From Astropecten irregularis (lineage: Eukaryota; Echinodermata; Asteroidea; Paxillosida; Astropectinidae): 64,000 nt of DNA. The notes under the pieces are model-generated. The model did no database searches, was not told the DNA's origin, and worked only from the letters and a program-made list of their open reading frames with translations. A program made the translations under genes and the position numbers. This document shows, in pieces, positions 9,710 to 46,672 of this stretch (within the stretch, counting starts at the first letter, position 1; every line of letters begins with the position of its first letter). The stretch is from positions 1,798,001-1,862,000 of the forward strand of contig OZ020261.1 in assembly GCA_963971285.1 (NCBI GenBank), read 5' to 3'.

Positions 9710-12700
9710 TCATATTGATTGACCTTTGACCTTCTCCCGACCAAGCATTTTTGTGAGTTGCTCCCTGACCATGCCGATCTGAAGGTCGTCCTGGGGTTGG
9801 CACATAACCTGCTGGCACAGGTGGATTCTGGGATTGCTGGGCTGGTGGTGGGTGGACAATAGTTTCAGGAATTCCACGGGGCTAGGGAAATGTGAGCAGA
9901 AAGGAAAAATGGGTTTCCATGACAAACAACTAGATATGGAATCCAGATTGGTTCATACAGTCACAACAGTTAAAAGTCATATTAATGCACCCTTATCCTC
10001 AACACAAATATAATAATGATGGTGGATACTTATAAAGCGCACATTCCGTCTTAATTTCGACACTCACGGCACGTATATCCCTGGGCATTGGGCTACATTT
10101 TACATGGGTAGTATACAGCTAGGCTGCTGAAAAGCGAACATTGGCTAATCAAGCACACAGCCATCATCTCTACCCTCACAGGTACCCAAACTCCAGGGTG
10201 AAGAGGAGCAATATGTGACAATTAAAGTGTCTTGCCTAAAGACACAAGCACCACTAGCCCATGACTGGATTCGAACCCACAATCTGTAGATTGACCAAGA
10301 GACATTGAATACGACACGCCAGACCACTAGGCCACAGCACTCCACAAGACAAGAGCTGCTTGCCACACATTACCACATATAACCACAGTCTCCATAGCGG
10401 AACTTGATCATAAACCAAGCGTAACAACAAACACAACTCTGTTACTGTCCCCAAATCAAATACCTCAAGATATTCTTCAAGTTTCTTCCCACACACTGCC
10501 TCACTCTGGAATTCCCTACCCTCATCCTGTTTTCCTACAGGATATAATCTCTCTCAATTCAAACGTATAATGTTAATAGTTTTCTTGCAAACAGATCTTC
10601 CTAATTGCTCTGTTTTTCTCTCTCCTTTCCTTTAGCCCTCACCTTTGAGTGGCCCTCTTGGGCCTGGTGTTGGGCAATATTTAAATTAAAATTTAATAAA
10701 AATAGAGTTTTATTCAGATACAAACCTGATTTTCTTTGGCAGACATTCCCACAGTCCATCATAGTACTCTGGAAGAATATCTCTCCCCTGCAAAAAGCAT
10801 AAGAGATACAATAATAAATAACAGTTTTTGTGAGAAAAAAATAGCCTTACCAAGGGTTATTCAAAATCAACCAGAATTATGATACTCAAGTATCATACTT
10901 TGGTAGGCAACCGAAACAGAAATGTTCACAGATTTACGTATGACTTAAAAAAGATGGGTATAAAGATGGTAATGGTAGAAACATATCACTAAAATGTTTC
11001 CGCCTGAAATGCTGTATCTATCAAGAAATTAGTAAAACAAAATACCAAAAACAGTTTTGGTGTTCGAGATCAAAACCTCACAATAACAACTACATGTACC
11101 TCACAATTTTGCACAATTGCAACAGTTTTTCGCCGTTTTCTACTGTTTCCAATTATCAAGTGAGCTGAAAATGTCACAGGTTTATTTTTATCCTGTGACA
11201 AATAAAATCATGAAAGACAGCAGCTGTTCTATCAATTTTACAAAAGTATGATACTACCTTCAAATTTTTGCTAAATACGTGGTAAAATCCATGTGTGTTG
11301 CACTGTATTGCAATGTCAAAAGCCCACAGATGATGTCTATTTGACCGGTGAGTGATAATGAGGACAGTACAAGCAAAGACAAATAACACACACACAGACT
11401 GAAGAGGTTAATAAGCACAACCTCTACTACCTACTTGTAATAGGGATGTCAGCAAGATATGAAAGAGCTCCGAGTGAGTCTGTGAGTTGTCTGATCTCTT
11501 CCGAACAAGGCTGATAGCATCTGACCATAACTTGTGTCTTAGTAGGGTCTTCAATGCATTCACAGCACCGTGGGACATGGAACTGCAAAAAGAAGGAAAA
11601 CAGCGGAATTTCCTTTAGATTTTTTTAAAATTTCATCAACGTACTATTATGGAGTATTCGTTTCTATAGCCAGGGGTCATTTTTACGAAGCCCTACAATC
11701 GATCGTAACTCAACTTGAGTTAGGAAGGATAAAAAATAATAATACGTAATAAAAATGTAGGCATTTACATAGTGTTCTTAAACAAGAGATATATCGCAAT
11801 GCTTTATACTACATTATAAACCATAGTCATCAGGTCCCATTTACATTCCTGAAACAATCTCAACTCCCTGGAGAGTATACAGCCCAAAGCTGCCTGCAAA
11901 GCGCGCAGGGCTAATCAAACACACAAAGCCATCTCTACCCTCACAGGTACCCATTTACACCTGGGTGAAGAGGAGCAATATGTGACAAAGCATCTTGCCC
12001 AAGGAACATCATATGTAAGGAATGAAAGTTTGATAGGTAAAATGGAATTTGGTTATTACCTGAGCTGCATTAACTCCGCTGTGGCTAGCACTGCAGCATC
12101 CCTATCTTTGGAATGGTCTGGTCCTGGCAAGCAGCCAATAGCTGTATCATAAAGTTGTACCTATGTAAATAATTGGGCGAAACCACTATTAGCCATGTTA
12201 GCAGGGAATGTTTTGGTGAATATTGTATTATCTAATTTGTATAAAAATGTATGATATGGCAGTTTTGGATTACATGGCTTCTGACTGGCACCCTGAGCAA
12301 AGATAGTTGACTATAGGGAGGCCCCATCATAGGGTTGGATAGCTCAAATGGTACAGCACTGGTATGACAGTTTATGGGTTATATGGCTTCTGACTGGCAC
12401 CCTGAGCAAAGATAGTTGACTATAGGGAAGCCCCATCATAGGGCTGGATAGCTCAGATGGTACAGCACTGGTATGGCAGTTAATGGGTTATACTCTGACT
12501 GGCACCCTGAGCAAAGATAGTTGACTATAGGGAGGCCCCATCATAGGGCTGGATAGCTCAGATGGTACAGCACTGGTATGGCAGTTAATGGGTTATATGG
12601 CTTCTGACTGGCACCCTGAGCAAAGAAAGTTGACTTTCGTTTTGCAAGAATTATCTTCCCTTATTTCCTTGTTTCTCTTTTAAACCCTGCATTGCTTAAT

Positions 12701-15700
12701 CTGCAAAGTTTCTGATTTGAATGTAACAGCTCTTACCTCATAAAGGCAAAAGATTCGCACAATATATAGTGCCTAGACAAACATACATGAAATAACAGTA
12801 TGAGGGCCAAATTATTTAGTTGAGGGTCTATTGATCCATTGACATTTAAGAGCTGTTACTGTTTGCTGGTTCTTGGGGAGGAACTTCCACTGAGATGTGA
12901 TCTATTGGCCCTTGTGAGGCGTCACTGTTTGCTGGTTCTTGGGGAGGAACTTCCACTGAGATGTGATCTATTGGCCCTTGTGAGGTGTCACTGTTTGCTG
13001 GTTCTTGGGGAGGGAACTTCCACTGAGAAGTGATCTTTTTGCCCTTGTGAGGCGTCACTGTTTGCTGGTTCTTGGGGAGGAACTTCCACTGAGATGTGAT
13101 CTATTGGCCCTTGTGAGGTGTCACTGTTTGCTGGTTCTTGGGGAGGAACTTCCACTGAGATGTGATCTATTGGCCCTTGTGAGGCGTCACTGTTTGCTGG
13201 TTCTTGGGGAGGAACTTCCACTGAGATGTGATCTATTGGCTCTTGTGAGGCGTCACTGTTTGCTGGTTCTTGGGGAGGGAACTTCCACTGAGATGTGATC
13301 TTTTGGCCCTTGTGAGGCGTCACTGTTTGCTGGTTCTTGGGGAGGGACTTCCACTGAGATTTGATCTTTTGGCCCTTGTGAGGCGTCACTGTTTGCTGGT
13401 TCTTGGGGAGGAACTTCCACTGAGATGTGATCTATTGGCCCTTGTGATGCGTCACTGTTTGCTGGTTCTTGGGGAGGAACTTCCGCTGAGATGTGATCTA
13501 TTGGCCCTTGTGAGGCGTCACTGTTTGCTGGTTCTTGGGGAGGAACTTCCACTGAGATGTGATCTATTGGCCCTTGTGAGGCGTCACTGTTTGCTGGTTC
13601 TTGGGGAGGAACTTCCACTGAGATTTGATCTATTGGCCCTTGTGAGGCGTCACTGTTTTCTGGTTCTTGGGGAGGAACTTCCACTGTGATGTGATATATT
13701 GGCCCTTGTGAGGCGTCACTGTTTGCTGGTTCTTGGGGAGGAACTTCCACTGAGATGTGATCTATTGGCCCTTGTGAGGCGTCACTGTTTGCTGCTTTCC
13801 TGGCAATATTTCGCAGTGTGATTTGTTCATTTGGCTGTTGTTGTGTCAGATTGTATCCATGGCAACATCTTGCACAGTTCAGAAAAGCAAAAGCCTTTAC
13901 AAAGGCTGCTCTGTAATCTGAATTTGTCCCACTGAATATCAGGGGATTAATGGAGCTATTAATTAATAGGAGGATTTCATTTGTGAGTAATAGGTCGATC
14001 AGTGCCTCAAACTGTTTGATCCAGTCAACAGTAGAGAGGTTTGATGCTTCAGCTTCTAGTGTCGATGTTTTAATGCCAAAAGCAAGAGAAACTGCATTAC
14101 AGGCAAAAAACACAACTGTGTTAATAAGAAGCATGGTAACTACTTTCCCAAATTGGCTCTGTCGTGTTGAATGCAGTGGTTGTGGCTGTCGTACTTTCAA
14201 TATTATGTAAATGTACAACGCAAGGTTGGTCAATATAAAGAATGCATATATGAGTGTATACAAAATAAGAAACCTGAGACCACCACTCCATTTTACGGAG
14301 CTGATTAAAGTTATCCCAATGACGATTGCTATCAGCCATACAGCAGCTGATATCTTAGCAGCTCGACATTTACTGGCTGTAGCTCTGAATGTTATCGGTT
14401 GTCGTATGGCAAAGAATCGCTCAAAGGCCAAAGCTGTTACAAAACCATATGATGAAAGTTTACTGATAACAGCAATGTGATTAGAGATGACTTCATTTTC
14501 TTGAATGTTCCAAGTTATTAAGTTTCTGGCTAGGAAGATACCATCAGCCACAGCTAAGTTGCCCAAGTAGACATTGACAATGGAGTGCATGGATTTAACA
14601 CGTGCAATGACATACAGGAAGATGACATTCATAAGCAGACCAAATGGTACCACATAATTCACCACGTTCAGCCATATCTGAGCATTTTTGTTGTAATGTC
14701 GTTCATATTCTTGAGAAGCTCTGAAGATATCAAATTCTTCATCTGTCCAATTTGCCATTTTGTTTGATTTTCTGATCAAACTGTCCAGATTAGATGCAGC
14801 TACCTGTGTTCCTGCATTAATGACCTGCATCCTTACATCAACTCCAGTTCCATGTTCCACTGCACCCTCAACATCCACTACAGTTCCACACTCCACTGCA
14901 CCCTCAGCATCCACTACAGTTCCACACTCCACTGCACCCTCAGAATCCACTACAGTTCCACACTCCACTGCACCCTCAGCATTCACTACAGTTCCACGCT
15001 CCACTGCACACACAGAATCCACTACAGTTCCACACTCCACTGCACCCTCAATATCCACATATAAACCAGCCTGTTGTCCGAGGCCTACATGTAAATGTTA
15101 CATTGACTGATAATGTGGTTAAACACTGATGCAACCTTTAGGAAGAATGACTGTTTAATATACATGCATCACAATTTGTACTCACAGTGAAGTCCGGAGT
15201 TTCACACAATGGAAACTAAAACATGAACGATTTCTTAGATCAAATTATCTCCAACTTTCAATTTTACTTTTTAGTTGTAACTGAATATTTACAACCACTT
15301 ATAGAAATATTAGCCGCATGGAGCTCTTGTATTACTTGAGACAGGGAAACAAAACCACATTGATCTTTAACTGTACATCAGACAATGGGAATTACTTTTA
15401 ACCTAATAAATCATTTCTTCGATTCAATTATCTTTCACTTTCAGTATTGCATCTTTCAGTACACACAGAGATGATGTACTACAATACTGTATGTGGAATT
15501 ATGACCAGCATGTGACATCCATAACAAACATTAGAAGACACAGGGCAGAATAAACGAAGAGATGTCTGATGAATTCCCGTTGTATTTGGGGGGTGCCTCA
15601 TCAAAGATCAGTCATGGGTCTACTAGACTTCATCTTGTACACAAGTCCTCTAAGTGAAGTCATCTCTGCTCATGCAGGTGTACGTCACGTGTTGTATGCT

Positions 15701-18700
15701 GATGACACTCAATTGTATGTCATTACACAACGTGATGACTTACATGAAGACATTTCATCTATGGAGAACTGTGTACAGGATGTTTAGGTCTTGGGCCAAT
15801 GACAACAATCTCATGCTTAATAGAGACAACACTGAAATGATTCATATCAAATCAAAGTACCGAAAGCACAACGAGCGTGCAACTCTCAATATAGATGGAG
15901 TATCTATTAAGTTAACCCTAACCCTCCTCAATCCTCCAAAATCCTTCTGGTAGGTTTGGAGGATTTCGGAGGATTCAGGATATAATTGTCATTTTCAAGT
16001 GAGGACCACTTGAGGAGTTGCAAGGATTCAGGATAAACGCATTTTTTGAGGTATGGCCACCGAAGGATTCTGAAGAATTCAGGTACCTCTCATTTTGAGT
16101 ATAAGTGAGATAACTGGAGGATTATGGAGGATTCAGGATGAACGCAGTTTTTAAAGTGTGACCATTGGAGGATTGTGGAGGATTCAGGATGGCACACAGT
16201 ATAATGCCACTAGGGGGTTAGGGTTAACTCTTCAACATCTGCCAAGGATCTAGGTGTTATTGTAGATGACTCTCTTGACTTAAGGGATCACATTCGTAAA
16301 GTCTGCCGGGCAGCCACATTTGGCATTTATAGGATAGGAAAAGTTCGGAAATATCTTGACCAAAGTTCAACCCAACGTCTTGTTAATGATTCCGTTAAAC
16401 CACACCTCGATTACTGTAATAGTTTGTTAATTAACTTACCTGCCGCTCATCTTGCTCCATTACAACATAAACAAATTACCTCTACCCGTCTTATCACACG
16501 CACCAGAAAGCACGAACACATAACCCCTGTCATTCGCAATTTGCACTGGTTAAAAATCCCACAAAGAATTCAGTTCAAAATCTTACTAATTGCATACAAC
16601 ATAATCCATAACAACGCACCATCATATCTGATTGACCTCGTCTCAGACAAAACTCCTACATCTATGACCCTCAGATCAACTTCCAAATCCCAACTTGCCC
16701 CTGGCCCTCGTTCTCGTACTCGTTAAGGTGATCGTGCTTTCGCGGTGTGCGCCCCTCTCCTATGGAATACCCTCCCCTCCCACATACAGAATTCTCCCAC
16801 AGTTGATACATTTAAAAAGAAGCTTAAAACTCATCTATTTAACCAACACTAAATAGTTTTATTATCACTGTCATGTTTATATAATCATGAGTCTCTTGTA
16901 CAAATAGCTGGGGGCCAGGCCACTTGCTTCGAGCGACAAGTTGTCCAGTCAAAACTTAAATTGGCCTCCAGCCATTTCCTGCAATTCTTTCATTTAATTT
17001 TGCTAAACTGTTTTGTTAATGTTAATTTATATTTTGGTTATTTTTGTTAAGCGCTTAGGAACGTTGTATTAAGCGCTATATAAATATGCATTATTATTAT
17101 TATTATTAGAATGAGTGGAAAGTCACCACATGCCATCAGCCTGTCCAGGTATTCAAAGGCAACATTCTGTTGACTTATCCCATTCAAATCTCCTGAATTG
17201 TCTCAGGTTTCAACAGACAGAGGGAGATAGCACCCCAAGTGTTGCATACCGTTGGAAAGCTCTTTCAGCGATTATCATACTTCTATTATTGGTTGGGTAC
17301 ATATCCATTGTTAACGCTCTGCTACTTAACTGATGATGTAATCATCACACCCTGTTCCATTATCACAAATTTCAAAAAATTTACAATTGTAAGATCTTAT
17401 GATTTTTTTTCCCTGGGCCTGAGCCTACACGTTTAACTTAATATCTCCCCAAACCTTTGAGAAACTTTTGACAACAAATTCATCAAAATTACAGGTAAAG
17501 TTTTCTCACAGTGAAAACTAATATAACATACATTTGATTCAAGTGAAATTTGTCAAATCGGAAGTTCAAAAACAATATTAAAGCTTCTGTGTCAAAATGT
17601 TCCCTTTTACAAAGTATTGCCAAAGTTCTTCTTCGTTCATATTTCTGCTAAAGTTCTTCCAAAGATCCTTGATCACTGCACAAACTCTATTTGTTGCAAA
17701 CAGCATGTATTTACACAACTTTATGTACATTGTATGCAAATGAAGATGCAGTGAAACCGTGACATTTTCAAACAAATGCACACTTGAGAACACTATATAC
17801 CAGCTTGAGCATCGGATGACAGGAACTACATATCATATTCAGTTTCATGGATTCTACTTTGATTTTGCAAGAATTATCTTCCCTTATTTCCTTGTTTCTC
17901 TTTTAAACCCAGTGCATTGTTTAATCTGCAAAGTTTCTGATTTGAATAACAGCTCTTATCTCTTAAAGGCTAAAGATTCGCACAATATAGTGCCTATACA
18001 AACATACATGTAATACCAGTATAGGGAGGCCCCATCATAGGGCTTGATAGCTCAGATGGTAGAGCACTGGTATGGCAATTAATGGGTTATATGGTTTCTG
18101 ACTGACACCCTGAGCAAAGATGGTTGACTATAGGGAGGCCCCATCATAGGGCTTGATAGCTAAGATGGTAGAGCACTGGTATGGCAATTAATGGGTTATA
18201 TGGTTTCTGACTGGCACCCCAGGCTGAGCAAAGATAGTTGACTATAGGGAGGCCCCATCATAGGGCTGGATAGCTAAGAAGGTAGAGCACTGGTATGGCA
18301 ATTAATAGGTTATATGGCTTCTGACTGGCACCCTGAGCAAAGATAGTTGACTATAGGGAGGCCCCATCATAGGGCTGGATAGCTCAGATGGTAGAGCACT
18401 GGTATGGCAGTTAATGGGTTATATGGCTTCTGACTGGCACCCTGAGCAGAGATAGTTGACTATAGGGAAGCCCCATCATAGGGCTGGATAGCTCAGATGG
18501 TAGAGCACTGGTATGGCAGTTAATGGGTTATATGGCTTCTGACTGGCACCCTGAGCAAAGATAGTTGACTATAGGGAAGCCCCATCATAGGGCTGGATAT
18601 CTCAGATGGTAGAGCACTGGTATGGCAATTAATGGGTTATATGGCTTCTGACTGGCACCCTGAGCAAAGATAGTTGACTATAGGGAAGCCCCATCATAGG

Positions 18701-21700
18701 GCTAGATAGCTAAGAAGGTAGAGCACTGGTATGGCAGTTAATAGGTTATATGGCTTCTGACTGGCACCCTGAGCAAAGATAGTTGACTATAGGGAAGCCC
18801 CATCATAGGGCTAGATAGCTCAGATGGTAGAGCACTGGTATGGCAGTTAATGGGTTATATGGCTTCTGACTGGCACCCTGAGCATATAGGACTACAAAGA
18901 TGAATATTAATTTTCAGAAATAAAATTGTTACATGTATTACCGTTGTCTTCTTTCTTGAGAAGGCTGAAACGTCCATCACTTTGTGTCTGACCTGCTGAC
19001 ATAGGTTCACGAACTCCACCTGAAACAGAATAATACACATCTTGTTTAGCATGGGCAGCAGCGTATCTAAGTGAAAACAGCATCTGAGGAAAGTGCTAAA
19101 ATTGCGCCCCTACTTCCAATTTCTGATGCCAATGAAAAAACTCAGGAGAAAATTTGAAATTGGAAGCTTTCTTTCTTTGTTCATTAGATTAGATTTCCAA
19201 TAACTTCAACAGCACTGCTACTTTTTTTTTTAATTTATAATTTCAACACCATGGAACTTAAACTCAACTTTCAAATTTAAAAACCTGTCATAAAATATGG
19301 CTTACCAGTTGGCTTGGGAATTCCTGGAATATAAGTCTGCATAGGATCTCAAACAGAGGCAATCCTGATTCAGATTCAGGGGCCATAACAGCCAATGAGA
19401 TGATAGGAAGTGCTGGGTCCAACTCAGCATCCTCCAATGGGATTGCTTGGAATGTTATGTGACCTGTGATGCATGAATGAAAAGACATTATTCAGATTCA
19501 GGGGCCACAAAAGTACAACAGCCAATGAGACGATGGGAAGTGCAGGGTCCAACTCAGCATCCTCCAATGGGATTGCTTGGAAAGTTATGTGACCTATGAT
19601 GCATGAATGAAAAGACATTATTCAGATTCAGGGGCCACAAAAGTACAACAGCCAATGAGACGATAGGAAGTGCAAGGTCTAACTCAGCATCCTCCAATGG
19701 GATTGCTTGGAATGTTATGTGACCAGTGCCTGATTTCACGAAACTTTACGCAGTTGCGTAAGTCCACTTACGCCACGAAATTTGTGGCGTAAGTAGACTT
19801 ACGCAACTGCGTAAAGTTTTGTGAAATCGACTGCTGTAATGCATGAATGAAAAGATATTATTCAGATTCAGGGGCCACAAAAGTACAACAGCCAATGAGA
19901 CGATGGGAAGTGCAGGGTCCAACTCAGCATCCTCCAATGGGATTGCTTGGAATGTTATGTGACCTGTGATGCATGAATGAAAAGACATTATTCAGATTCA
20001 GGGGCCATAACAGCCAATGAGACGATAGGAAGTGCTGGGTCTAACTCAGCATCCTCCAATGGGATTGCTTGGAATGTTATGTGACCTGTGATGCATGAAT
20101 GAAAAGACATTATTCAGATTCAGGGGCCACAAAAGTACAACAGCCAATGAGACGATGGGAAGTGCTGGGTCCAGCTCAGCATCCTCCAATGGGATTGCAT
20201 GGAATGTTATGTGACACAAATTATTCAGATTTCAGGGCCACAAATCAAAAACCTTGAAATTCAATGAGATGGCTTCATCAGAACATTGTACAGCTTACAA
20301 CATTGTATACATGGTAGTATTTACAATTTTTTCTAAATACATTAGTTATTATTACTAAGAACAAAATCTCAACATATCTAAATATCAAAATAGGATTGAC
20401 CGAAAAAATGACCAAAGTTTACCATTTTCATCATAGTGACCAATATTAAGGGCGTCTAGGAGTGCAAAAAGCGTTGCCATAGGAACATGAAGACAAAGAT
20501 GAGTCATCCATGTCTGCCGAACTTTCGGTGAAACTGCAGCGGAGACGTCCAATATTTGAGAGACAACATCTTTAACTGTAAGCGGTTTGGCCAAATTAAC
20601 CTGGAGATGTAAGAGAAAGAAATTAGGGCAATGATCAGGGGCACCAAGGTAATGATCAGGGGCACCAAGGCAATGACCAGGGACACCAAGGCAATGACCA
20701 GGGGCATCAAGGCAATGACCAGGGGCATCAAGGCAATGACCAGGGGTACTAAGGCAATGACCAGGGGCAGCAAAGCAATGACCAGGGGCACCAAGGCAAT
20801 GACCAGGGGCAGCAAGGCAATGACCAGGGGCATCAAGGCAAAGACCAGGGGCATCAAGGCAATGACCAGGGGTACCGAGGCAATGACCAGGGACACCAAG
20901 GCAAAGACCAGGGGCATCAAGGCAATGACCAGGGGCATCAAGGCAGTGACAGGGGCATCAAGGCAATGACCAGTGACACCAAGGCAATGACCAGGGACAC
21001 CAAGGCAATGACCAGTGACACCAAGGCAATGACCAGGGACACCAAGACAATGACAGGGGCATCAGGGCAATGACCAGGGGCACCAAGGCAATGACCAGAG
21101 GCACCAAGGCAATGACCAGAGGCACCAAGGCAATGACCAGGGGCACTTCATGAACCCATCTCACCTTTGACTGGTCGTCCATAACAGCAAGCTTCTTCTG
21201 GTATAACTGCCAGTACTGCTGGAGTAGTGGCCTCATGTTATCGTTCAACTGCGTCCCAGGGTCATTGTCCTGATCTTTGGTTTCGTACAAAGTCTTCAAC
21301 GCTCGGGATGCCTGTGGCTTGTGGTTTGCATCCGCCTCCTGTAGATTACAATGAGCATCTAGCCATTATGGGCATTTACAAAACAAAGACTTAGGCTTAG
21401 GCTCAGGCTCAGGTTCAGACTCAGGCTCTGTTTTGTGAATCCATTCTAAAATAACGGGTATCAAAATAGAGGCTTTTGGCAGCGGTGTGGAGGTAGATTC
21501 TCTGGTTTGAACATGAAAACAGAGATTTAGTCTTAAATGAAAAACTACAAACTATATTATCAGCATATGGATGACAGAGCCGGAGCCTGAGCCTGAGCCT
21601 AAGCCTCAATTTTGTAAACCCCCTATGACTTCAGTGTGACGGTTTCCAACATTGAGTAGCCTACAACATGTGTACTTGGATTATTCAGATTCTGGTGCCA

Positions 21701-24700
21701 ATAATTGGAATACTAATGTATACTTAGGTTATTCAGATTCAGGGGCCATTGTACAGCCAAAGATATAAGAATACAAAACGTGTACTTAGGTTATTCAGAT
21801 TCAGGGGCCACTGTACAGCCAAAGATATAAGAATACAAAACGTGTACTTAGGTTATTTAGATTCAGGGGCCACTGTACAGCCAAAGATATAAGAAAACAA
21901 AATGTGTACAAGGTTATTCAGATTCAGGGGCCACTGTACAGCCAAAGATATAAGAATACAAAATGTGTACAAGGTTATTCAGATTCAGGGGCCACTGTAC
22001 AGCCAAAGATATAAGAATACAAAATGTGTACTTAGGTTATTCAGATTCAGGGGCCATTGTACAGCCAAAGATATAAGAATACAAAACGTGTACTTAGGTT
22101 ATTCAGATTCAGGGGCCACTGTACAGCCAAAGATATAAGAATACAAAACGTGTACTTAGGTTATTTAGATTCAGGGGCCACTGTACAGCCAAAGATATAA
22201 GAAAACAAAACGTGTACAAGGTTATTCAGATTCAGGGGCCACTGTACAGCCAAAGATATAAGAATACAAAATGTGTACAAGGTTATTCAGATTCAGGGGC
22301 TACTGTACAGCCAAAGATATAAGAATACAAAATGTGTACTTAGGTTATTCAGATTCAGGGGCCATTGTACAGCCAAAGATATAAGAATACAAAACGTGTA
22401 CTTAGGTTATTCAGATTCAGGGGCCACTGTACAGCCAAAGATATAAGAATACAAAACGTGTACAAGGTTATTCTGGCAGATTCAGGGGCCATTGTATATA
22501 CAACCAATGATATGGAATAAATATATCCAAATCATGATCAGCCACATAATTATTACTCATTATCCAATGAGATAGCTTAGAACATTGTGTAGTCTACTTA
22601 TCATCCAATAGAATGAATAAGAATGTTATCAATGATACGTGAACATTATTCACATTCAGGCGCCACATGCACCAATAAAACATGTGGAATGATTCAGGGG
22701 CCATGATGCAACCAATAGGAGATGTGGAATTATTACATCATATAATATCATCCAATAGGATGAAAAGTTCAATAAATGATTTTGTCAACTATACATGAAA
22801 ACTATTCAGATTCAGGGGCCACAATGCACCAATGAAACATGAGGAATGGATGTATCCACATCTTATTAGCCAATCAGGTGATGAGTTGATGACTGGTAAC
22901 CACCCACCTGCAACAATGACACAGCCAAGCAGGGACTCTGAAACCCCTGCAGGGGACCAGTCAATCCCTTAGCCTGGACATTCTCTTTGCTCCGGCCGGA
23001 ATACGCCTCGTAGGCGCCATGAAGGGCAGTCCGGGCAGCAAGTCGCTTCTCGCCAAAGTCGCCGAGAGTCAGAGCAGCTTCTGACTTGCTCATGGTCGAC
23101 GGCAGCGACTCAACATTATCCATCTGTTGAATTATTTTATAAAACAACAGAGTTATGCAATGAAATGTGTCCCAATAGACCCTTCCAGACTAAAGTCTGG
23201 ATAGAACTTCTCACAAACTGCGCAATAATGGTTTACGACTCTACTGTCATTCACAGAAAAACTTTTGGACTTTGCCATTTTGTTTTATGCTAATTGTTTG
23301 CGTGCCCCATGAAAACTGCACTTTTTCCATACCTGCATAACCCAGATTCCCTTCGAAGTCCAGACTCCGATCCTGGGAATGGAACCCACAATGCACCACA
23401 GCTTAGCATCCGTTCCCATGGAGATGGTCGACATGTTCAGCTCTTGGAGTGGTTCCCCCGTTTTATTACTGAAAATTCTGAGAAAGAACACAGAACTTGA
23501 ATAGTAGACAAACTGGACAACACCTTGTGGAAACTAGGGCAATTTAAAAATTACTTAGCACAAAATATCTTGCTCAGTAAAACAAACCACCATCAAAAAT
23601 TCCATTTGATATTTATTTCTCTTTATTGCGTGAAGAGTGAATCAGGGGCCTTTTCCAAACCTTGGCTCAGGCTCCGGCTCTGTCATCCATATGCTGAAAA
23701 TATTGGTTGTGGTATTTCACTGAAGCTAAAGCTCTGTTTTCCTTGTCAAACCAGAGAATCTACTTCCGAACTGCAGCAAAAAGCCTCTGTTTTGATACCA
23801 GTTATTTTAGAATGGATTCACGAAAGTTAATGGGCCAAGGCCGGAGCCGGAGCCGGAGCCGGAGTTGGGGTTTGGAAGGCCCAGGGCTAATTTACAAAAG
23901 CCAACTGGAGTTTTTAGAGGGGAAATCTCCTCATGGATCGTAAAGCGTTAGTGAAATGGGCCCCAGGGCTTATTTACTGAAGCCAACAAGGAACTTGGTG
24001 AAAATTTATTAGGAATAATCTTAACTTACCTGATTACATGATCCTCACATACAGCTCCCAGGGCAAACCTATAAGCAAACCACTTAGCACATTTACCAAT
24101 ATCAAGCTTAGCAGGAAGTTGAAGTACATTCAATGTCTCTGCAAAGAATATCAAAATAGTACCTCATCATTATGCAGTGCCTTCTCCAATTCAAAGCTGT
24201 AAAAATGCCGTAAACTGCTCATCAACCAAAGTATTCATCCGAAATATATATAAAATTTATACAAAAAAGTTTAACTTGCAGTTAGGATCGCGATCGGAGG
24301 GCCTGACATTTTGATCATAGGGCCCAATTTTATGGAATCAATTATGGTAAGCAAAATTTCTTCGCTCATTATAGATAGCAGAATTGTTTTGCTTACAGTA
24401 AGTGTATTTCACAGGAAAGTTTTCTTTCTCATTACAATAATCAACGAATTTCTACAGAATGCACATGACAGAGCATTAGCAGAAAAAAAAAATCAAGGTT
24501 AGCCTAGAAATGTTTCGCTTACCGATTAAGTGCCGAAAATCTTGGTTGTGGATTTCATAAAATAGATTTAACGCATAGCAGTGTCCGTAAGCACAAAAAT
24601 AGGCAGTAACGGATTCCATGAAATTGGGCCCAGGTTCCCTCTGTAATTAACGCCTTAGGTCGCTAGATACTAAAACACCATCTAACATACCTTCGGCTCC

Positions 24701-29685: not shown

Positions 29686-32600
29686 CGAGGTCTGAAAAAG
29701 GCCCAGGTACATGGTATCTCAGAGATTTGACCTTTAACATGTTAGGGTCACAAATCAATATAAAGTTTGCGTGAATTGTATTTTGTGGTAGGTGCAGAGG
29801 ATTAGGGTTAATATCAAAATACCATGGTAACCATACACAAGTACCTTTTGATTGATGGGACCTGAATCAAAGGTCCTCATTGCTTGCCCCTCCTTGAGTG
29901 ATACAAAGAGATGACGTGTACACCCCCACACGGAATGGATCTGTCCGGCTTCGAGGTCATCACGGAATAGGTCATCCAAATCCTAAAAGCAGATTATCAA
30001 ATACCATCACCATCATTATACCCTGTGAGTCGTACATGTAGGTAAATCTGTGCTCAGATTTTGATATGCTACCAAAGCATTATGCAAATTAGGCTTGCCC
30101 TTCATGTGGATGAGCAATGTATACTCAGCGTTTGTTGAGTGCACATGAAAAAAACGTGTGCTGGCTCAGGTAGGATTCAAACCCACAACCTCCTGCTTAC
30201 TTTGCCACTGACCCTAGCTAGCTCGATGACCTAGCAGTATGGCATCTGCACTAGTAAGCAGGAGGTCGTGGGTTCAAATCCCACCTGAGCCAGCGTGTAA
30301 TTTTTTCATCGTGTGTGCATTAACCCTAGCAGGCATTGAGACCACAATTCACCACTCATGGTTTACACAGTGGCACACACACACGGTCATACACTGTGTG
30401 TGTTGGTTGTGGTCCGTTGTGGTGTACAGTAAAGCTCCTCTGTGGCACATGTCAAACGTTAGGGTTAAAACAAGCACTGACTATGCATTGCTCATGCACG
30501 TCAGTGAAGGGCATGCCTAATTTGCATATTATTTATCTCACGACCAAATTGAATACCAAAGTATGAAATGACCTTTTAATAAGAAAGATGTAATATCTCA
30601 CGTCAAAATAACTCTACAATTGTACACGAACAACTATGCACATTCTACTTTTATTTCAATTTCTCCCATTGATTCAAAGCAGTTGTATAGTATAATTTTC
30701 CTACAATCTTTAAAATCGAAATGGTCACCAACATTAAAGTTTAGTAGAAGTACATGAAACCTACATGTATACATGTTAACATGTAAAAACCAAATCACAA
30801 GTAATTTATAAACTGCTTCTGCTGCAAACTGCTCATCAACTAAAACAATGACCATAAAATGCTTGGATTCAAAATTGGGGGGGGGGGGCGACTACGTTTC
30901 GACCCTAGCAGGATCTTTCTCAAAGGCTAGCTAGCCGAAGTTGAGAAAGATCCTTCTAGAATTGAAACATAAGGCCATCATAACTGTAGGTAAATAACAA
31001 AAAAAATAAGAAATTTAACTAGGTATTTTCAAGACATCATTCCAATCATGTACATATGAACATACTTTTCAAAATGATACAGATTTACCATGAACGAATT
31101 TTGTCTAAATCAAATTTCAAATATTTAAAAGACAAAACGAACGTATACTTTACATGTAGGCCTAAGTAGGTCTCTTTACAAAAAGATGCTTTCCTTTCTT
31201 TTATAGTTTTAGGCCCCAACCAGCCAACAGTCCATAAACATCAAATTTTTCACCATTTATTTTCATGCAATCATATGCATTAAGAAGATGCCCAATGGTG
31301 ACTGAGTAGATTATATAATAGACCTACATGTACAGTCCTGAAGCTACAAAACCATGAAGTCTGTAAATACCAACGAAAAATGATGGTACCATTCCTTTAT
31401 CCAAGCTTCTAAGTTTTATCTATGTTTTTGCTTACATATTTTTCTAAGGCCAAATAACCTACTCAGGAAAGTGATTTTGGTTCAAATGGGAACGATTCAT
31501 CTGTTTGACTCACTCAAGTAAATGATAAATGAAAAAAATATAATCAACCAATTTTCTGGGGGCATAAAAATAATTTGATGTCTCTGAGATGAAAAGTAGG
31601 CCTAATTAATTTAGTCAATTCTCACAAAAACTGTAACATTTAAGGCAGCAACAGGCCTACAGTGTATCTTTACAGGAACATTCTATGAACATCTTCTTTA
31701 TAGTTTATACCACTCGGTGACACCTATCTGCGAACATTGCTTCTTTCTTGTTTTTGTTTTCATCCCAAATCAATAATGAGTTATCACCTCACCAATAATA
31801 AAATGTATTACAGTAGAGACAGTTGGTTCAACTGTAGGGCAAGAGATCACAGAGTTTGGATCAAGTTTCTTTGAGACAATGGAGGCAATTGCCTTGGTGC
31901 CCTTCGGGCCCTTCATGCCCTTGGTCGTTTCTCTGCAGCAAACAAATGTTGCAAGCCCTTAAAACATTTTACAATCCTGTCAAGAATCTGTCTGGCACAA
32001 CAAATCCCATTTCCTTAGCCTGAGCCAGATCTGAATGCAGTGACACTCCAGGTCCACCAACACTTGTCTCCCAGAGGTCGTATCCCACTCCTGCCACCAT
32101 TTCTCTCACACGTTCTACTGTGTTGGGTGTGGTGTCCGGCCGTAGGAGTGTCAGGGAACATCCACCACCCCCAGCGCCTGTCAGCTTGGAGTGGAGGCCA
32201 TGTTTGGCGGTAAGGGAGCAGAGCTGCTCCAGGGCTGGATGGGAGACGCCAAGAATCTCAAGGAACTTTTGATTCATGTCAATCAGCTCCTCGAGATGCT
32301 CGTACTGATGCACTGACTGGCTGCCTTCTCCAACTGGATGGCTTCCACTTCCAGCAATCTGATTAGCTTCCTCCTTCAAGGAATCTGATTGGATTGTTGT
32401 ACTCACTAACCCACGCCCTTCTTCCTTTGATTGACCAATCACAAGCTCCTCAAAGAGTGACTGGCAGGTCTGGGAAATAGCTTCAACAGACTCCAACACA
32501 GGGGTGATGATGGAAGGGTACTTCTCATACTTCTTCCGAACACCCGCAACGAGGGCTTTAGTGCTGCGTGGGATCTTTGTGTTTATCAGGAGAATGCGTA

Positions 32601-34384
32601 ACAGAGGAACATTATCTAGAGGTGCAATCTTTGCTCCTTGATAACGAAGAGCGCCTCCGTATGTGCTTACAGCGTTATCAATTCCCGAGGGATTGCCGTG
32701 GATGATCCGTTCAGCTTCGAAGGCCCATCGATTGATCAGATCTAAGTCATCCTGTTTCCAAGACGGCTGGCCTGATCCATTCTCTCCCACTGGGATGACC
32801 AATCCCGCCTTGGTCAGAAAAGCAGCAGCGATGCAAACTGAGAAGGCAGCCGATGACCCCAATCCTGCTCCGGTTGGGAGACAAGAGGTCAAATGTACCT
32901 GAACTGGTGGATAACCCGTGGTTTCATCAGACCCTAGGATGGACAAGTACAGGTACAAGACTGCCAGGACCGCAAGATCTTTGGTGGTTCCGTCCTCGGA
33001 AATACCTGCAAACTCCTTCATCTTATCCAGCAGAATCGGGGATGGTGGTGCAACATCCTTACTGGCTTCCCGTCCAAGACAATCTGAGAAGGTCCTGGTC
33101 AGTTCTTTGACCTGCCACGCCAAGTCCAGACCAATGTCCGGCAAGGCGAATGAGGCCGATGACCCATCAGTAGGGAAGCCCAGCTTCAGGAATGTCCGTA
33201 GGGTCAGGCTTCCAGCCAGGGCAGTCTTTCCGTAGACGACTGCATGCTCCCCGTGCAGAATTACCTTCCCAGGAGCGGACACATAGAGGGCGCTCTCCAT
33301 CACCGTGGACTTACTCATTGCCATACCAGACAGTTGCTTTGGGTTTTTTTTCTCAGTGATGCTAGTGATTGGGAAATGACAAAACAAAGCACGAAATCGG
33401 CATCATCAATTGATCATTCTGACGTGTGACTGTTGACTCAATAAGCCTCCACAAACTTGAACTGCCATCCTATGACCAGCCACTGCACGCTGGTTGCAGT
33501 CAGGAAAGTGTCAAAGTCAAGGTACTTTATCAGCTAAATGATGTGTCCACCTCTACCACTATTATTTTATACTTTTTATGGTGTTTCAACCATATTCTAA
33601 ACGGTAAACCTACAACAGAACACAATTGACATAGGCCTAATGGTGCCTTAATTCCGAAGGTATAGGTTGTTTTAAGTTACTCAAGTCAAGGTAAGAGTTG
33701 GTGAAGGTACGAGTTGGCCAAGCTACGAGTTGGCAAAGGTACGAGTTGGTGAAGGTACGAGTTGGACAAGCTACGAGTTGGCAAAGGTACGAGTTGGTGA
33801 AGGTACGAGTTGGACAAGCTACGAGTTGGCAAAGGTACGAGTTGGTGAAGGTACGAGTTGGCCAAGCTACGAGTTGGCAAAGGTACGAGTTGGTGAAGGT
33901 ACGAGTTGGACAAGCTACGAGTTGGCAAAGGTACGAGTTGGCAAAAGTACGAATTGACTCGAAAGCACTGAAACTAATTATAATGTTGAGCACAATCTAA
34001 GTTTAAGAAGTTAAGTTACCGTTTGTCCGAAGTGGGGGCGAAGTGGCTTATTTTTTAAAAGAAAACCAACGTTTTTAACCAAGGCCTATCTGAAGTGAAG
34101 GTTAAGGAAGGTTAAAAAAAATGCCAAATAATGAATGTTAAATTCAAAATAGCACACGGCTCAATTTAAAACTTGCACAGGCGTCAAAATTGCACTCAAC
34201 ACAAGACAACAGTAACAACATCAACATTGAACATGTTGAATATGCAACAAATTTTACAAAATACAAATCATAAAAATGTTCAAATTCGTCCTGCCACGCT
34301 AATTAATGATTATTGCAAAATTCTCAAACTTACCTTCTCTTTCTCAAAGGGAAGGGCACTTTGAACCGCTGTAAATGAGAACAT
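9710..34384 (-). CDS. HPS6: HPS6, BLOC-2 complex subunit (18 exons, 809 aa)
   Basis: Subunit of BLOC-2 (with HPS3 and HPS5), which delivers cargo from endosomes to lysosome-related organelles such as pigment granules. Coding exons: 34334-34384, 29845-29982, 29301-29396, 28179-28392, 27616-27721, 25329-25500, 24691-24802, 24030-24138, 23333-23477, 22908-23123, 21165-21338, 20423-20600, 19306-19463, 18942-19019, 12060-12160, 11435-11582, 10726-10787, 9710-9881. All junctions are GT/AG and phase-compatible, summing to 2430 nt; human HPS6 is 775 aa. Matches recalled from human HPS6 include LQAVAIDESRGRVIWVEG with FSVCTRTI (beta-propeller-like N-terminus), TTLLQNCPKCALY, GLPLFEILCRLIF, and ELFHILLTSLLQ near the C-terminus. 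Vertebrate HPS6 coding sequence is in one exon, so 18 exons is a striking difference. MVK and a GPCR are nested in introns 1 and 14. Exon 1 is the least certain: its ATG overlaps a possible acceptor. Confidence 0.88.
10030..10350 (-). mobile_element. Second tRNA-derived SINE family, full copy
   Basis: Minus-strand tRNA-like head (GGCCTAGTGGTCTGGCGTGT, then TGGGTTCGAATCCAGTCATG) followed by a body with GGCAAGACACTTTAATTGTC and ATTGCTCCTCTTCACCCTGG. Lies in HPS6 intron 17. Confidence 0.85.
10877..11270. mobile_element. MITE, TIR GTATCATACTTTGGTA
   Basis: Ends AAGTATCATACTTTGGTAGG and AAAGTATGATACTACCTT are inverted; HPS6 intron 16. Other copies: 24925-25312 (beside exon 6), 27870-28172 (abutting the exon 4 donor), 35635-35985, and a partial at 46735-46950. 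Confidence 0.8.
11825..12012 (-). mobile_element. Second SINE family, head-less copy
   Basis: Shares AAGCACAAAGCC/CTACCCTCACAGGTACCCAT and AGAGGAGCAATATGTGACAA with the copy at 10.0-10.35 kb but lacks the tRNA-like head. It is close to the HPS6 exon 15 donor (12060). Confidence 0.8.
12240..12635 (+). repeat. SINE-derived 109-bp satellite array A
   Basis: About four copies of a 109-bp unit containing GGCTTCTGACTGGCACCCTG, ATAGTTGACTATAGGGAGGC and a tRNA-like A-box half (GGCTGGATAGCTCAGATGGT). The unit matches the 5' half of the dispersed tRNA-type SINE in this window but lacks its B-box. Located in HPS6 intron 14. Confidence 0.9.
12641..12802. repeat. Direct repeat U, left copy
   Basis: About 160 bp of non-satellite sequence beginning TTTGCAAGAATTATCTTCCC, repeated in the same orientation at 17873-18022 (about 90% similar by eye, a few indels). 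The copies lie between array A and the nested GPCR, and between the LINE fragment and array B. Confidence 0.88.
12845..13795. repeat. 66-bp coding minisatellite, GPCR tail (about 14 units)
   Basis: Head-to-tail 66-bp units (for example TTGCTGGTTCTTGGGGAGGA followed by ACTTCCACTGAGATGTGATC). Since 66 is divisible by 3 the array stays open in several frames on both strands. The minus frame continues the GPCR. Units at about 13262 and 13010 carry an extra G (GGGAGGGAAC), so each 67-bp unit shifts frame; the first ends the protein at 13253. Confidence 0.95.
13253..14830 (-). CDS. Atypical rhodopsin-family GPCR with 22-aa C-terminal repeats, nested in HPS6 intron 14
   Basis: Seven-helix receptor; ligand unknown. 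The core starts near Met 14758 (MANWTDEEFD, an N-glycosylation site) with TM1 around NYVVPFGLLMNVIFLYVI, TM2 with conserved LAVAD, TM3 ending ALAFERFFAIRQP, TM4 with the conserved Trp (AAVWLIAIVIG), TM5-6, and TM7 with NSSINPLIFSG in place of NPxxY. DRY is changed to ERF, the TM6 CWxP motif is missing, and no TM3 cysteine is visible, so it is a divergent class A receptor. The tail consists of 22-residue repeats (NSDASQGPIDHISVEVPPQE plus two) read through eight copies, then a 1-nt insertion shifts frame and stops it. The first in-frame ATG is 14830. The frame stays open upstream to 15097 through six 12-residue repeats with no ATG, so either translation starts at 14830 or 14758, or an upstream exon splices in at about 15084 (TGTAG acceptor). 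Confidence 0.85.
   Translation of the reverse strand: MQVINAGTQVAASNLDSLIRKSNKMANWTDEEFDIFRASQEYERHYNKNAQIWLNVVNYVVPFGLLMNVIFLYVIARVKSMHSIVNVYLGNLAVADGIFLARNLITWNIQENEVISNHIAVISKLSSYGFVTALAFERFFAIRQPITFRATASKCRAAKISAAVWLIAIVIGITLISSVKWSGGLRFLILYTLIYAFFILTNLALYIYIILKVRQPQPLHSTRQSQFGKVVTMLLINTVVFFACNAVSLAFGIKTSTLEAEASNLSTVDWIKQFEALIDLLLTNEILLLINSSINPLIFSGTNSDYRAAFVKAFAFLNCARCCHGYNLTQQQPNEQITLRNIARKAANSDASQGPIDHISVEVPPQEPANSDASQGPIYHITVEVPPQEPENSDASQGPIDQISVEVPPQEPANSDASQGPIDHISVEVPPQEPANSDASQGPIDHISAEVPPQEPANSDASQGPIDHISVEVPPQEPANSDASQGPKDQISVEVPPQEPANSDASQGPKDHISVEVPSPRTSKQ
14840..15058. repeat. 36-bp minisatellite at the GPCR 5' end (6 units)
   Basis: Six 36-bp units; in the GPCR frame they read as 12-residue repeats of the form EGAVECGTVVDS. 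There is no ATG in this frame upstream of 14830, so coding status depends on an unseen upstream exon. Confidence 0.9.
15540..17110 (+). mobile_element. LINE fragment (RT and 3' end), interrupted by a small element
   Basis: Plus-strand decayed non-LTR retrotransposon. Reverse transcriptase motif LYADDTQLYVITQRDD is at about 15700. After an insertion at 15911-16228 the frame resumes with SSTSAKDLGVIVDDSLDLRD, then the C-terminal region (HLDYCNSLL, ITPVIRNLHWLKIPQRIQFK, AVCAPLLWNTLP). The 3' end is GCGCTATATAAATATGCATT followed by (ATT)n, typical of CR1/L2/Jockey-like elements. Broken by stops and 5'-truncated. Lies in HPS6 intron 14. Confidence 0.9.
15911..16228. mobile_element. MITE with telomere-like TIRs inside the LINE
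   Basis: A 318-bp insert with perfect 14-bp terminal inverted repeats GTTAACCCTAACCC / GGGTTAGGGTTAAC. The interior repeats GGAGGATT...CAGGAT motifs. It interrupts the LINE reverse-transcriptase frame, so it is younger than the LINE copy. Confidence 0.85.
17873..18022. repeat. Direct repeat U, right copy
   Basis: Second copy of the sequence at 12641-12802, directly abutting satellite array B. The two copies bracket a 5.1-kb segment that holds the GPCR and a LINE fragment. Confidence 0.88.
18020..18885 (+). repeat. SINE-derived 109-bp satellite array B
   Basis: About eight units of the same 109-bp repeat as the array at 12.2 kb, ending 57 bp before HPS6 exon 14. Units differ by a few substitutions (ATCTCAG, TAAGAAGG variants) and one 5-base insertion (CCCAGGCTGAG). 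Confidence 0.92.
19360..20245. repeat. ~130-bp tandem array containing partial copies of HPS6 exon 13
   Basis: Six to seven units, each with a minus-strand AG acceptor, the start of exon 13 (reading GHITFQAIPLEDAELDPALP) and the core ATTCAGATTCAGGGGCCA. Only the last copy (19306-19463) continues into the conserved 3' half and the true donor at 19305. The others replace that half with the next unit, so they are partial exon duplicates lying in intron 12. Confidence 0.9.
19725..19836. mobile_element. Palindromic MITE inside the exon 13-derived array
   Basis: Arms GAAACTTTACGCAGTTGCGT and ACGCAACTGCGTAAAGTTTT are inverted around CGAAATTTGTGG; it splits one ~130-bp unit. Confidence 0.85.
20625..21155. 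repeat. 21-bp minisatellite filling HPS6 intron 11
   Basis: About 25 units of a 21-bp repeat (AAGGCAATGACCAGGGGCAC and variants) take up almost the whole 563-bp intron between exon 11 (ends 21165) and exon 12 (starts 20600). The period is a multiple of 3, so long frames run through it on both strands. Confidence 0.93.
21369..21632. mobile_element. GAGCC/GGCTC-ended MITE copy, intron 10
   Basis: Ends with GGCTTAGGCTCAGGCTCAGG and GAGCCTGAGCCTAAGCCTCA next to GGGCATTTACAAAAC/TTTTGTAAACCCCC. Other copies of this family are at about 3912-4146, 23645-23890, 29450-29705, 42660-42785, 42783-43012 and 51416-52245 (the last split by an insertion). Confidence 0.8.
21690..22495. repeat. ~61-bp satellite with five-unit higher-order structure, HPS6 intron 10
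   Basis: Thirteen units built on TTATTCAGATTCAGGGGCCA followed by CTGTACAGCCAAAGATATAA. Diagnostic variants (TTAGG versus AAGG leader, CATTG versus CACTG, TTTAG, GAAAAC) recur in the same order every five units. It shares its core with the exon 13-derived array at 19.4-20.2 kb. Confidence 0.9.
22500..22860. repeat. Degenerate copies of the ATTCAGGGGCCA repeat
   Basis: Loose repeats of CATTCAGGCGCCACATGCAC, ATTCAGGGGCCATGATGCAA and similar sequence with CCAATAGGA spacers, between the 61-bp array and HPS6 exon 10. No coding potential seen. Confidence 0.7.
25794..26627 (+). mobile_element. LINE 3' fragment (RT C-terminus)
   Basis: A 163-codon plus-strand frame typical of the end of LINE ORF2: LAHVRPILEYGSEIWNPSAK, IEKVQRRATKFI, RRKLKDNVLFFKGL, FFNRIYNSWNEIPSNI. 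It is followed by an AT-rich 3' UTR and an AATAAA-type simple tail (about 26590-26627). 5'-truncated; lies in HPS6 intron 5. It is a different family from the LINE at 15.5 kb, judging by the tail. Confidence 0.88.
26747..27178. mobile_element. 432-bp TIR element with AT target duplication
   Basis: Terminal inverted repeats ACACCGATCCAGTAGGCCAC / GTGGCCTACTGGATCGGTGT. The flanks (GATAAT / ATTGAC) rejoin to the SINE consensus GATAATTGAC if AT is the duplicated target, so the element inserted into a SINE. Confidence 0.8.
27180..27600. mobile_element. Opposed pair of tRNA-type SINEs
   Basis: Minus-strand copy (27180-27400) and plus-strand copy (about 27430-27595). The latter has a foldable tRNA-like body from GGCTGGATGGCTCAGTTGGT to GGTTCGAATCCCGCTCCAGT. 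It ends just left of HPS6 exon 5 (starts 27616). Confidence 0.88.
29070..29262. repeat. ~22-bp minisatellite near HPS6 exon 3
   Basis: About nine copies of CCACCAAGATGGCATCTTTA in HPS6 intron 3, about 40 bp from the exon 3 donor (29301). Isolated relatives occur at 28860-28915. Confidence 0.9.
29450..29705. mobile_element. GAGCC-ended MITE copy
   Basis: Termini TAGGCTCCGGCTCCGGCTCT and the expanded run AGAGCCAGAGCCAGAGCCAG; internal TTTCATTGAAGCTGAAGCTC is shared with the other copies. HPS6 intron 2. Confidence 0.8.
30138..30300. mobile_element. Inverted tRNA-like pair
   Basis: Left arm TGGCTCAGGTAGGATTCAAA is the near reverse complement of right arm GGTTCAAATCCCACCTGAGC; both carry GTAAGCAGGAGGTCGTGGG-type sequence. 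A palindrome made of a tRNA-like SINE head. HPS6 intron 1. Confidence 0.8.
31969..33387 (-). CDS. MVK: Mevalonate kinase, intronless, nested in HPS6 intron 1
   Basis: GHMP-family kinase that phosphorylates mevalonate with ATP in the mevalonate pathway to isoprenoids and sterols; cytosolic or peroxisomal in animals. The 472-codon frame holds all three GHMP motifs: APGKVILHGEHAVVYG near the N-terminus, the glycine/serine loop PTGAGLGSSAAFS, and KLTGAGGGGCSLTLL near the C-terminus; NPSGIDNAVSTYGG carries the family's conserved Asp region. The first ATG (33387) adds a poorly conserved leader. By family comparison the start is more likely 33300 (MESALYVSAPGKV) or 33324, giving about 443-451 aa against 396 in human. 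The excess is a Ser/Gly/Glu-rich insertion before the QYEHLEELIDMNQK helix. There is no intron, whereas human MVK has many. It sits on the same strand as its host HPS6. A possible AATAAA lies at 31256-31261 (minus strand). Confidence 0.95.
   Translation of the reverse strand: MFCHFPITSITEKKNPKQLSGMAMSKSTVMESALYVSAPGKVILHGEHAVVYGKTALAGSLTLRTFLKLGFPTDGSSASFALPDIGLDLAWQVKELTRTFSDCLGREASKDVAPPSPILLDKMKEFAGISEDGTTKDLAVLAVLYLYLSILGSDETTGYPPVQVHLTSCLPTGAGLGSSAAFSVCIAAAFLTKAGLVIPVGENGSGQPSWKQDDLDLINRWAFEAERIIHGNPSGIDNAVSTYGGALRYQGAKIAPLDNVPLLRILLINTKIPRSTKALVAGVRKKYEKYPSIITPVLESVEAISQTCQSLFEELVIGQSKEEGRGLVSTTIQSDSLKEEANQIAGSGSHPVGEGSQSVHQYEHLEELIDMNQKFLEILGVSHPALEQLCSLTAKHGLHSKLTGAGGGGCSLTLLRPDTTPNTVERVREMVAGVGYDLWETSVGGPGVSLHSDLAQAKEMGFVVPDRFLTGL
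33690..33955. repeat. 16-bp minisatellite in 48-bp higher-order units
   Basis: Repeats of AAGGTACGAGTTGGTG, AAGGTACGAGTTGGAC and AAGCTACGAGTTGGCA in fixed order, making 48-bp units (about five). Lies in HPS6 intron 1 about 300-650 bp upstream of the mevalonate kinase start, so it may sit in that gene's promoter region. All resulting frames are repeat artefacts. Confidence 0.92.
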
Positions 34385-46033: not shown

Positions 46034-46504
46034 TTACTTAGGAAGCCAGTTGAGATAATCCAGAAATTCAGAGAAGGAGACCGTGCCATCCCCGCTCTTG
46101 TCGATGGTCTTCAAGTGAGAGTCAAGATGCTCTCGTTTGGCGCCGACAGAGAGAAGGAAGGCATCAACCTCAGACTTCTCCAAGACCCCGCTGCAATCTT
46201 TGTCAAGCTTCTTGAACATCTCCACAGCCTTACGGACGAGGAAAAAGCGGGATTTGTCATCGATCAAGGAGAAGTGGTCTCCGCTACGGATCCACTGGTA
46301 GAACTCCTGAAAGGTAACCTTCTGGTTGCCATCCTTGTCCGTGAGCATCGCAAAGGCTTCTGCCTGGACCTTGGTCATGCCCAAATCCTCCTGGGAGAAA
46401 CTCTTGAATTCCTCAGGGTTCAGGGCTCCACTCCCATCCTTGTCGTACTTGTTGAAGAGGCTCTGCAAAACCACCTTTGGCACGTCTTGATTGAAATAAC
46501 TCAT
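46034..46504 (-). CDS. Four-EF-hand calcium-binding protein
   Basis: A 156-residue protein with four canonical EF-hand loops: residues 21-32 (DKDGSGALNPEE), 56-67 (DKDGNQKVTFQE), 101-112 (DKDCSGVLEKSE) and 135-146 (DKSGDGTVSFSE). Each has Asp at position 1 and Glu at position 12, so all four should bind calcium. There is no signal peptide or membrane segment, so it is probably a cytosolic calcium buffer or sensor of the calmodulin/calbindin-like superfamily; I cannot assign an orthologue. Nine bases upstream of the ATG is a clear acceptor (TTTATTTCTCAG at about 46514), so the 5' UTR is spliced. A strong donor (GGGTAAGTT) at 47578 may close the non-coding first exon. Confidence 0.9.
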   Translation of the reverse strand: MSYFNQDVPKVVLQSLFNKYDKDGSGALNPEEFKSFSQEDLGMTKVQAEAFAMLTDKDGNQKVTFQEFYQWIRSGDHFSLIDDKSRFFLVRKAVEMFKKLDKDCSGVLEKSEVDAFLLSVGAKREHLDSHLKTIDKSGDGTVSFSEFLDYLNWLPK

Positions 46505-46549
46505 GACTGGTGCCTGAGAAATAAAACAAACATTACAAAATTGTAAGCA

Positions 46550-46672
46550 AGCTTGGGTCTCCTGATGAGGACTAGAGCGGGCTAGTCAAAACATTGAGAC
46601 CTTACGAGAAGTGCAAACGAAATAGAAGTGTGAAAGACCCGAAAGTATGAACGAATATTACATGGTGTTTCC
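46550..46672. mobile_element. Short relative of the AAGGTCTC element
   Basis: GGTCTCCTGATGAGGACTAG, CATTGAGACCTTACGAGAAG and ACGAATATTACATGGTGTTT match the right half of the element at 9.1-9.6 kb. Just upstream of the EF-hand gene's coding exon. Confidence 0.75.

Follow-up and report, generated by a model that had tools for sequence, protein, structure and literature searches.

A tandem array of intron-exon boundary copies in the HPS6 gene of the starfish Astropecten irregularis

The HPS6 gene of the starfish Astropecten irregularis contains, at one of its coding exons, six head-to-tail copies of 122–130 bp (20215-19306, minus strand), each combining the 3' end of the preceding intron with the first 96 nt of the exon. 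We regard this array as very probably a 'mirage', a minisatellite of the intron-exon boundary whose extra acceptors would be decoys. All positions are given in the window, the stretch of 64,000 nucleotides that was analyzed (C25:1798001-1862000 of a 475.7-Mb assembly), unless they carry a contig name; C25:1749000-1798000 was examined in addition.

HPS6 lies on the minus strand from 29982 to 9710 and was modelled as 17 exons in one open frame of 792 residues; the phases match, every exon has an AG before it, and every exon but the last has a GT behind it. Both Pfam domains pass the cut-off of 27 bits, the HPS6 N-terminal domain with 34.8 bits (E = 1e-8) and the C-terminal domain, HPS6_C, with 78.7 bits (E = 5.6e-22); together with the open frame they bear out the gene's identification in an earlier sequence-only reading. 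That reading called the exon at the array exon 13. It is the 12th of the 17 modelled exons, the exon with the start codon lies outside the model, and the number may therefore be right. Solved structures searched with HPS6 gave no match up to E = 10.

The features of the array and its surroundings are listed in Table 1. On the minus strand the units start at 20215, 20085, 19963, 19723, 19593 and 19463, and TRF reports rows at 19387-19728 and 19834-20215 with periods of 130 and 122. Unit alignment and TRF thus agree with the initial description of tandem partial exon copies with their acceptor at 19306-20215. Any two of the six units differ at between one and six positions within the first 75 nt, the part compared. 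Five partial copies sit within the preceding intron, upstream of the 158-nt exon, and the 3' half of the exon and its donor (ctg|GTAAGC) are present in the last unit only, as had been proposed. A partial unit opens with the first 96 nt of the exon, which end in TGGCCCCTGAATCTGAAT and may contain an 8-bp insertion; the intron tail with the acceptor follows, as AATGTCTTTTCATTCATGCATCACAG or a closely similar sequence. The exonic part is 96 nt in the short form and 104 nt with the insertion, or about 31 codons and not the 27 or so first estimated; the insertion, found in four of the five partial units of the window, shifts the frame. A unit length of about 130 bp was likewise proposed, and this holds for most units, although one partial unit has 122 bp.

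Table 1. Positions of the array units and related features in the window
Feature	Position	Strand	Remarks
Next downstream HPS6 exon	18942..19019	-	
Last and sole complete unit, an HPS6 coding exon	19306..19463	-	acceptor catcacag, donor gtaagcca; open frame, Pfam HPS6_C
Partial unit 5, 130 bp, long form	19464..19593	-	AG kept (catcatag)
Partial unit 4, 130 bp, long form	19594..19723	-	border AG absent
Hairpin insertion, 110 bp, MITE-like	19724..19833	.	predicted fold, genome matches
Partial unit 3, 130 bp, long form	19834..19963	-	AG kept; the AG displaced from unit 4 lies at its 3' end
Partial unit 2, 122 bp, short form as in the coding exon	19964..20085	-	AG kept
Partial unit 1, 130 bp, long form	20086..20215	-	TTTGT before it, border AG absent
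Degenerate core-motif copy GTGGCCCTGAAATCTGAATAAT, intronic flank	20216..20245	-	
Upstream HPS6 exon	20423..20600	-	donor must join one of the array acceptors
62-bp satellite, two introns upstream in HPS6	21708-22496	-	units with TGGCCCCTGAATCTGAATAA or close variants
Two single motif copies, same intron as the 62-bp satellite	22648..22821	-	2 and 0 mismatches to the 18-mer

Not every unit has retained its acceptor. An AG stands at the border of four of the six units (those starting at 20085, 19963, 19593 and 19463), and the count of 'six or seven near-identical acceptors' given earlier was too high. TTTGT takes the place of the AG before the unit at 20215. The unit at 19723 lacks a border AG because a 110-bp hairpin element has inserted beside it (19724-19833), and an AG scoring 7.5 persists beyond the hairpin. 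This element is near-perfect in its pairing and MITE-like, with a predicted fold energy of -79.1 kcal/mol, and has dozens of matches in the genome, at 92–98% in the better orientation among the 40 of 455 candidates that were scored.

A DNA search with the array recovered two more arrays on the same contig, outside the window, and array homologues were found at these three HPS6 loci only, with 40 of 455 candidates scored. Comparison of the HPS6 protein with C25:1749000-1798000 shows that exons 7-17 recur in two tandem segments, B (C25:1775956-1797321) and A (C25:1750911-1767420), while exons 1-6 have no significant match in either. The frame is open across the joined exons 7-17 of segment B; in segment A it is open over exons 8-17, exon 7 having 2 bp more. 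Nei-Gojobori estimates, made with our own script, are dN 0.004 and dS 0.038 between the window segment (W) and B, and, for exons 8-17, dN 0.014 and dS 0.088 between W and A and dN 0.013 and dS 0.064 between A and B. By these estimates of dN against dS the copied exons look constrained. We note that exons 7-17 are thus present twice more (C25:1750911-1797321) downstream of the complete gene, largely open, and the extra sets are possibly alternative 3' halves of one transcript.

The three arrays have 6 (W), 3 (B) and 13 (A) units, of which 5, 2 and 12 are partial; these numbers come from one assembly and are compared between paralogous segments. The units span the exon-intron boundary and the real exon forms one edge of the cluster at all three loci, where no unit but the last is a complete exon. 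Of the 22 units 18 have a border AG (4/6 in W, 2/3 in B and 12/13 in A), and the first unit of every array (3/3) has TTTGT instead. The loci share a nearly identical upstream flank and this acceptor-less first unit, and differ in unit number. Tandem arrays are frequently misassembled, and the authors of the report on the amphioxus globin BflGb6 judge its draft assembly aberrant (PMC3087553). Nevertheless, an assembly or haplotype artefact seems exceedingly improbable here, given units that differ from one another, an insertion present in one alone, and distinct arrays in three segments whose HPS6 exons are separated by dS of 0.038-0.088.

Twelve sites vary in the first 75 nt over the 22 units, and seven are informative. 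All four allele combinations occur in 10 of the 21 pairs of informative sites, and in 7 of the 21 when the three coding copies are left out; recurrent mutation could lie behind some of these pairs. Variants at sites 44, 50, 59 and 63 are common to coding and partial copies. Unit variants are reshuffled, coding copies included, and the array shows both unit-number instability (13/3/6) and exchange between units across the three paralogous segments. The frameshifting long form is found in 16 of 19 partial units and in none of the three coding copies. Sites 17 and 49 each have a variant, amino-acid-changing by codon reading, that occurs in 8 of 19 partial units and again in no coding copy. With three coding copies, their freedom from disruptive variants is suggestive only. 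An amino-acid change at site 24 is private to the coding copy of segment B.

Splice sites were scored with a weight matrix trained on HPS6's own sites, and the scores of those sites are flattered for this reason. The acceptors at 20085 and 19963 score 9.7, equal to the 9.7 of the real one, and that at 19593 scores 7.6. As donors, the GTs within the partial units reach 3.0 at most, against 5.8–12.6 for the 16 donors of the gene; a GT at 20252, directly upstream of the array, scores 5.4. An exon begun at any of the five upstream units would be 288–910 nt long and would contain a premature stop in all five cases. We rejected exon-repetition isoforms, which had been raised as a possibility, because the partial copies have no good donor and exon repetition is accordingly unlikely.

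The scores and frames suggest that the extra acceptors would act as decoys without a good donor, and that only the last acceptor would give a short, 158-nt exon and keep the frame. Messages from the other unit starts would be lost because a stop arises, and exon definition and message decay together would leave the last acceptor alone in use. If the extra acceptors are decoys, then the array is a tolerated by-product and not a device. It might instead be argued that the tandem acceptors are used, with alternative choice or nonsense-coupled splicing regulating the level of HPS6: three upstream acceptors in the window equal the real one or come within 2.1 bits of it (9.7, 9.7 and 7.6 against 9.7), and at least one intact upstream acceptor is present in the arrays at all three loci. 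We consider this quite unlikely, since the number of units varies (13/3/6), an insertion cuts off one decoy, the first unit is without an AG at 3/3 loci, and published mirages are reported as splicing regularly (PMC3087553). Three paralogous loci at which 2, 5 or 12 partial units precede one and the same exon would form a remarkably favorable natural system for examining directly how the last of many near-identical acceptors is selected.

Two orders of events had been offered for the array, either that the start of the exon seeded it or that the exon took its 5' half from a captured satellite unit. The first is supported, and the second disfavored, by comparison with human HPS6 and by Pfam. 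The human sequence that served as a yardstick matches both Pfam models over almost their entire length, with 517.6 and 461.0 bits, and masking three pieces that face the studied region costs 16.7, 22.8 and 11.7 bits; we trust the sequence in this region because of these scores and losses. BLASTP and MAFFT both align it across the duplicated half (DENGHITFQAIPL / DGNGKLRSQAPP), leaving one 6-residue and one 1-residue gap, and the BLASTP piece over the 5' half has E = 5e-4 in a comparison with this one sequence. The two have NG..(L/I)..QA.P in common and the human counterpart is nearly equal in length. Since human HPS6 aligns through it, the 5' half is probably ancestral and older than the array.

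Tests of the same region against HPS6_C are broadly in line. Masking HITFQAIPL lowers the score from 81.5 to 75.2, a loss of 6.3 bits, and four of four shuffles of this stretch also lower it (74.4–78.7). Masking EDAELDPAL or PIISLAVM does not (82.0 and 82.6), and masking APESES or GLPLFEILC costs 2.2 and 22.3 bits. The whole of the sequence before GLPLF contributes no more than about 8 bits (81.5 against 73.2); taken alone, it gives no HPS6_C match in Pfam. The Pfam test of the 5' half is consequently a modest one, and the alignment to human HPS6 appears to be the stronger.

If a unit was captured, the conserved half (CAG|GA TTG CCT, with the phase correct) would have been the start of the old exon. 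An AG scoring 6.0 does stand at 19364, directly before GLPLFEIL and with the frame kept, and it is because of this in-phase AG that we leave capture a small share of the probability. The middle residues are also without Pfam signal, and of three versions shortened by 14, 23 and 32 residues (75.1, 72.5 and 76.6 bits) the one with all 32 deleted scores best. Set against this, the intact protein scores higher than any of them at 81.5, HITFQAIPL holds its 6.3 bits, the 5' half is in frame in all three coding copies, and human HPS6 has a counterpart of nearly equal length that aligns over it. Overall, capture is improbable, and seeding of the array by the exon start is preferred.

The 18-bp motif TGGCCCCTGAATCTGAAT, at which the units are joined, is part of the exon and in each repeat also opens the intron tail. 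In the 476-Mb genome TTATTCAGATTCAGGGGCCA occurs at 72 places with at most one mismatch (67 forward, 5 reverse), compared with none for the reversed-pattern control, and 65 of the 72, including all 48 exact ones, are in the three HPS6 segments. The seven others have unrelated flanks; C9 has two of them, and a 58-bp satellite on C11 the remaining five. The C11 satellite (C11:3046300-3047800) is otherwise different and has the core TGGCCCCTGAATCTGCATAA in common with the HPS6 arrays. The looser TGGCCCCTGAATCTGNATAA with at most two mismatches gives 190 places against none in the control; HPS6 accounts for 48 of the 54 exact ones, and the matches listed include a TGGCCCCTGAATATGGATAA group on C1. 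Because of the places on C11, C9 and C1 the core motif is largely, but not wholly, confined to HPS6. The residues coded around it have little family signal (none for PIISLAVM, 2.2 bits for APESES). It is conceivable, if doubtful, that an exonic, recombination-prone core of 18 bp seeded two satellites in two introns and that the 5' half of the exon is continually rewritten by intronic copies, with selection for the frame.

The array probably began with two copies of the motif, one directly ahead of the acceptor in the intron and one some 80–96 nt into the exon. Unequal exchange or slippage between the intronic and exonic copies would then have duplicated the sequence between them, and later unequal exchange would have altered the number of units. 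The absent acceptor of the first unit needs an additional step in this account.

There are evident parallels with the amphioxus mirages in the globins BflGb6 and BflGb9 and in Adh3, to which TnC and PGBD5 have been likened (PMC3087553, PMC3902484). The second of these papers mentions both Adh and TnC and reports, for PGBD5, imperfect repeats that extend over splice sites (PMC3902484). BflGb6 has units of 150–160 bp that combine the 3' intron end with the 5' part of the exon upstream of the real exon, six and three in two haplotypes, and RT-PCR suggests regular splicing (PMC3087553). The starfish array resembles the mirages in its tandem duplication of an intron-exon boundary, its variable unit number, its within-cluster homogenization, and a splice signal kept in many but not all units (PMC3087553). 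It differs in belonging to an echinoderm and not a cephalochordate, and to another gene; in varying between three tandem segments and not between haplotypes; and in that the motif at its joint makes up a second, separate satellite in a different intron as well. The units of Adh3 (10–72 bp) and PGBD5 (60 and 108 bp) are shorter than those of the HPS6 array (PMC3087553, PMC3902484).

The HPS6 unit also carries AG|GT (CACAG|GTCACA), recalling the Rogers model of intron gain by AGGT duplication, but the partial copies here are inside an existing intron. The site scores give no sign of a new intron formed through a duplicated AGGT, GTCACA reaching only 3.0 as a donor against 5.8–12.6 for those of the gene. 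In potato and Drosophila, introns are reported to have been gained by tandem duplication in related cases. Arrays of the HPS6 kind outside lancelets were not found in a literature search by titles and abstract openings of the papers listed, mainly open-access ones. New here are the echinoderm case, the copy-number series at three loci, and an 18-bp exonic motif that builds a second satellite. If boundary duplications arise in both echinoderms and lancelets, they would represent a more general route by which splice sites are multiplied and the gene retained.

Several other features were seen in the window and in the genome. A rhodopsin-type receptor gene (Pfam 7tm_1; 13256-15097, minus strand) is nested in the HPS6 intron between 18942 and 12160, and each of the three segments has it with its frame open. 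Its protein is 72–75% identical to the other two, the surrounding DNA being mostly 90–97% identical, and between A and B its dN (0.112) exceeds its dS (0.090). The tandem segments may amplify the receptor, with the HPS6 exons as passengers. A 66-bp tandem repeat at 12858-13794 (TRF, 14.2 copies, 96% matches) lies largely in frame within the C-terminal tail of the receptor (EPANSDASQGPIDHISVEVPPQ). A satellite of 108–109 bp is found at 12255-12635, 18020-18884 and 59689-60255 and contains a tRNA-like stretch, TAGCTCAGATGGTAGAGCACTGG, which we take to resemble a tRNA A box.

Pfam at E 0.001 gave nothing in 62760-63998 or 16214-16723. Among viral contigs, a search for sequences related to the exon peptide yielded 77 pattern matches, none of them confirmed, and no genome match to lancelet-type GFP was found in a search that had no positive control. 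The genome has one bindin match (115.9 bits), and none of 14 control genomes has one; bindin is a marker of echinoderms, and the match favors an echinoderm over an amphioxus host. On the minus strand, a GHMP-kinase stretch, presumably mevalonate kinase, lies at 31972-33000, and a protein with several EF hands is encoded at 46037-46585.
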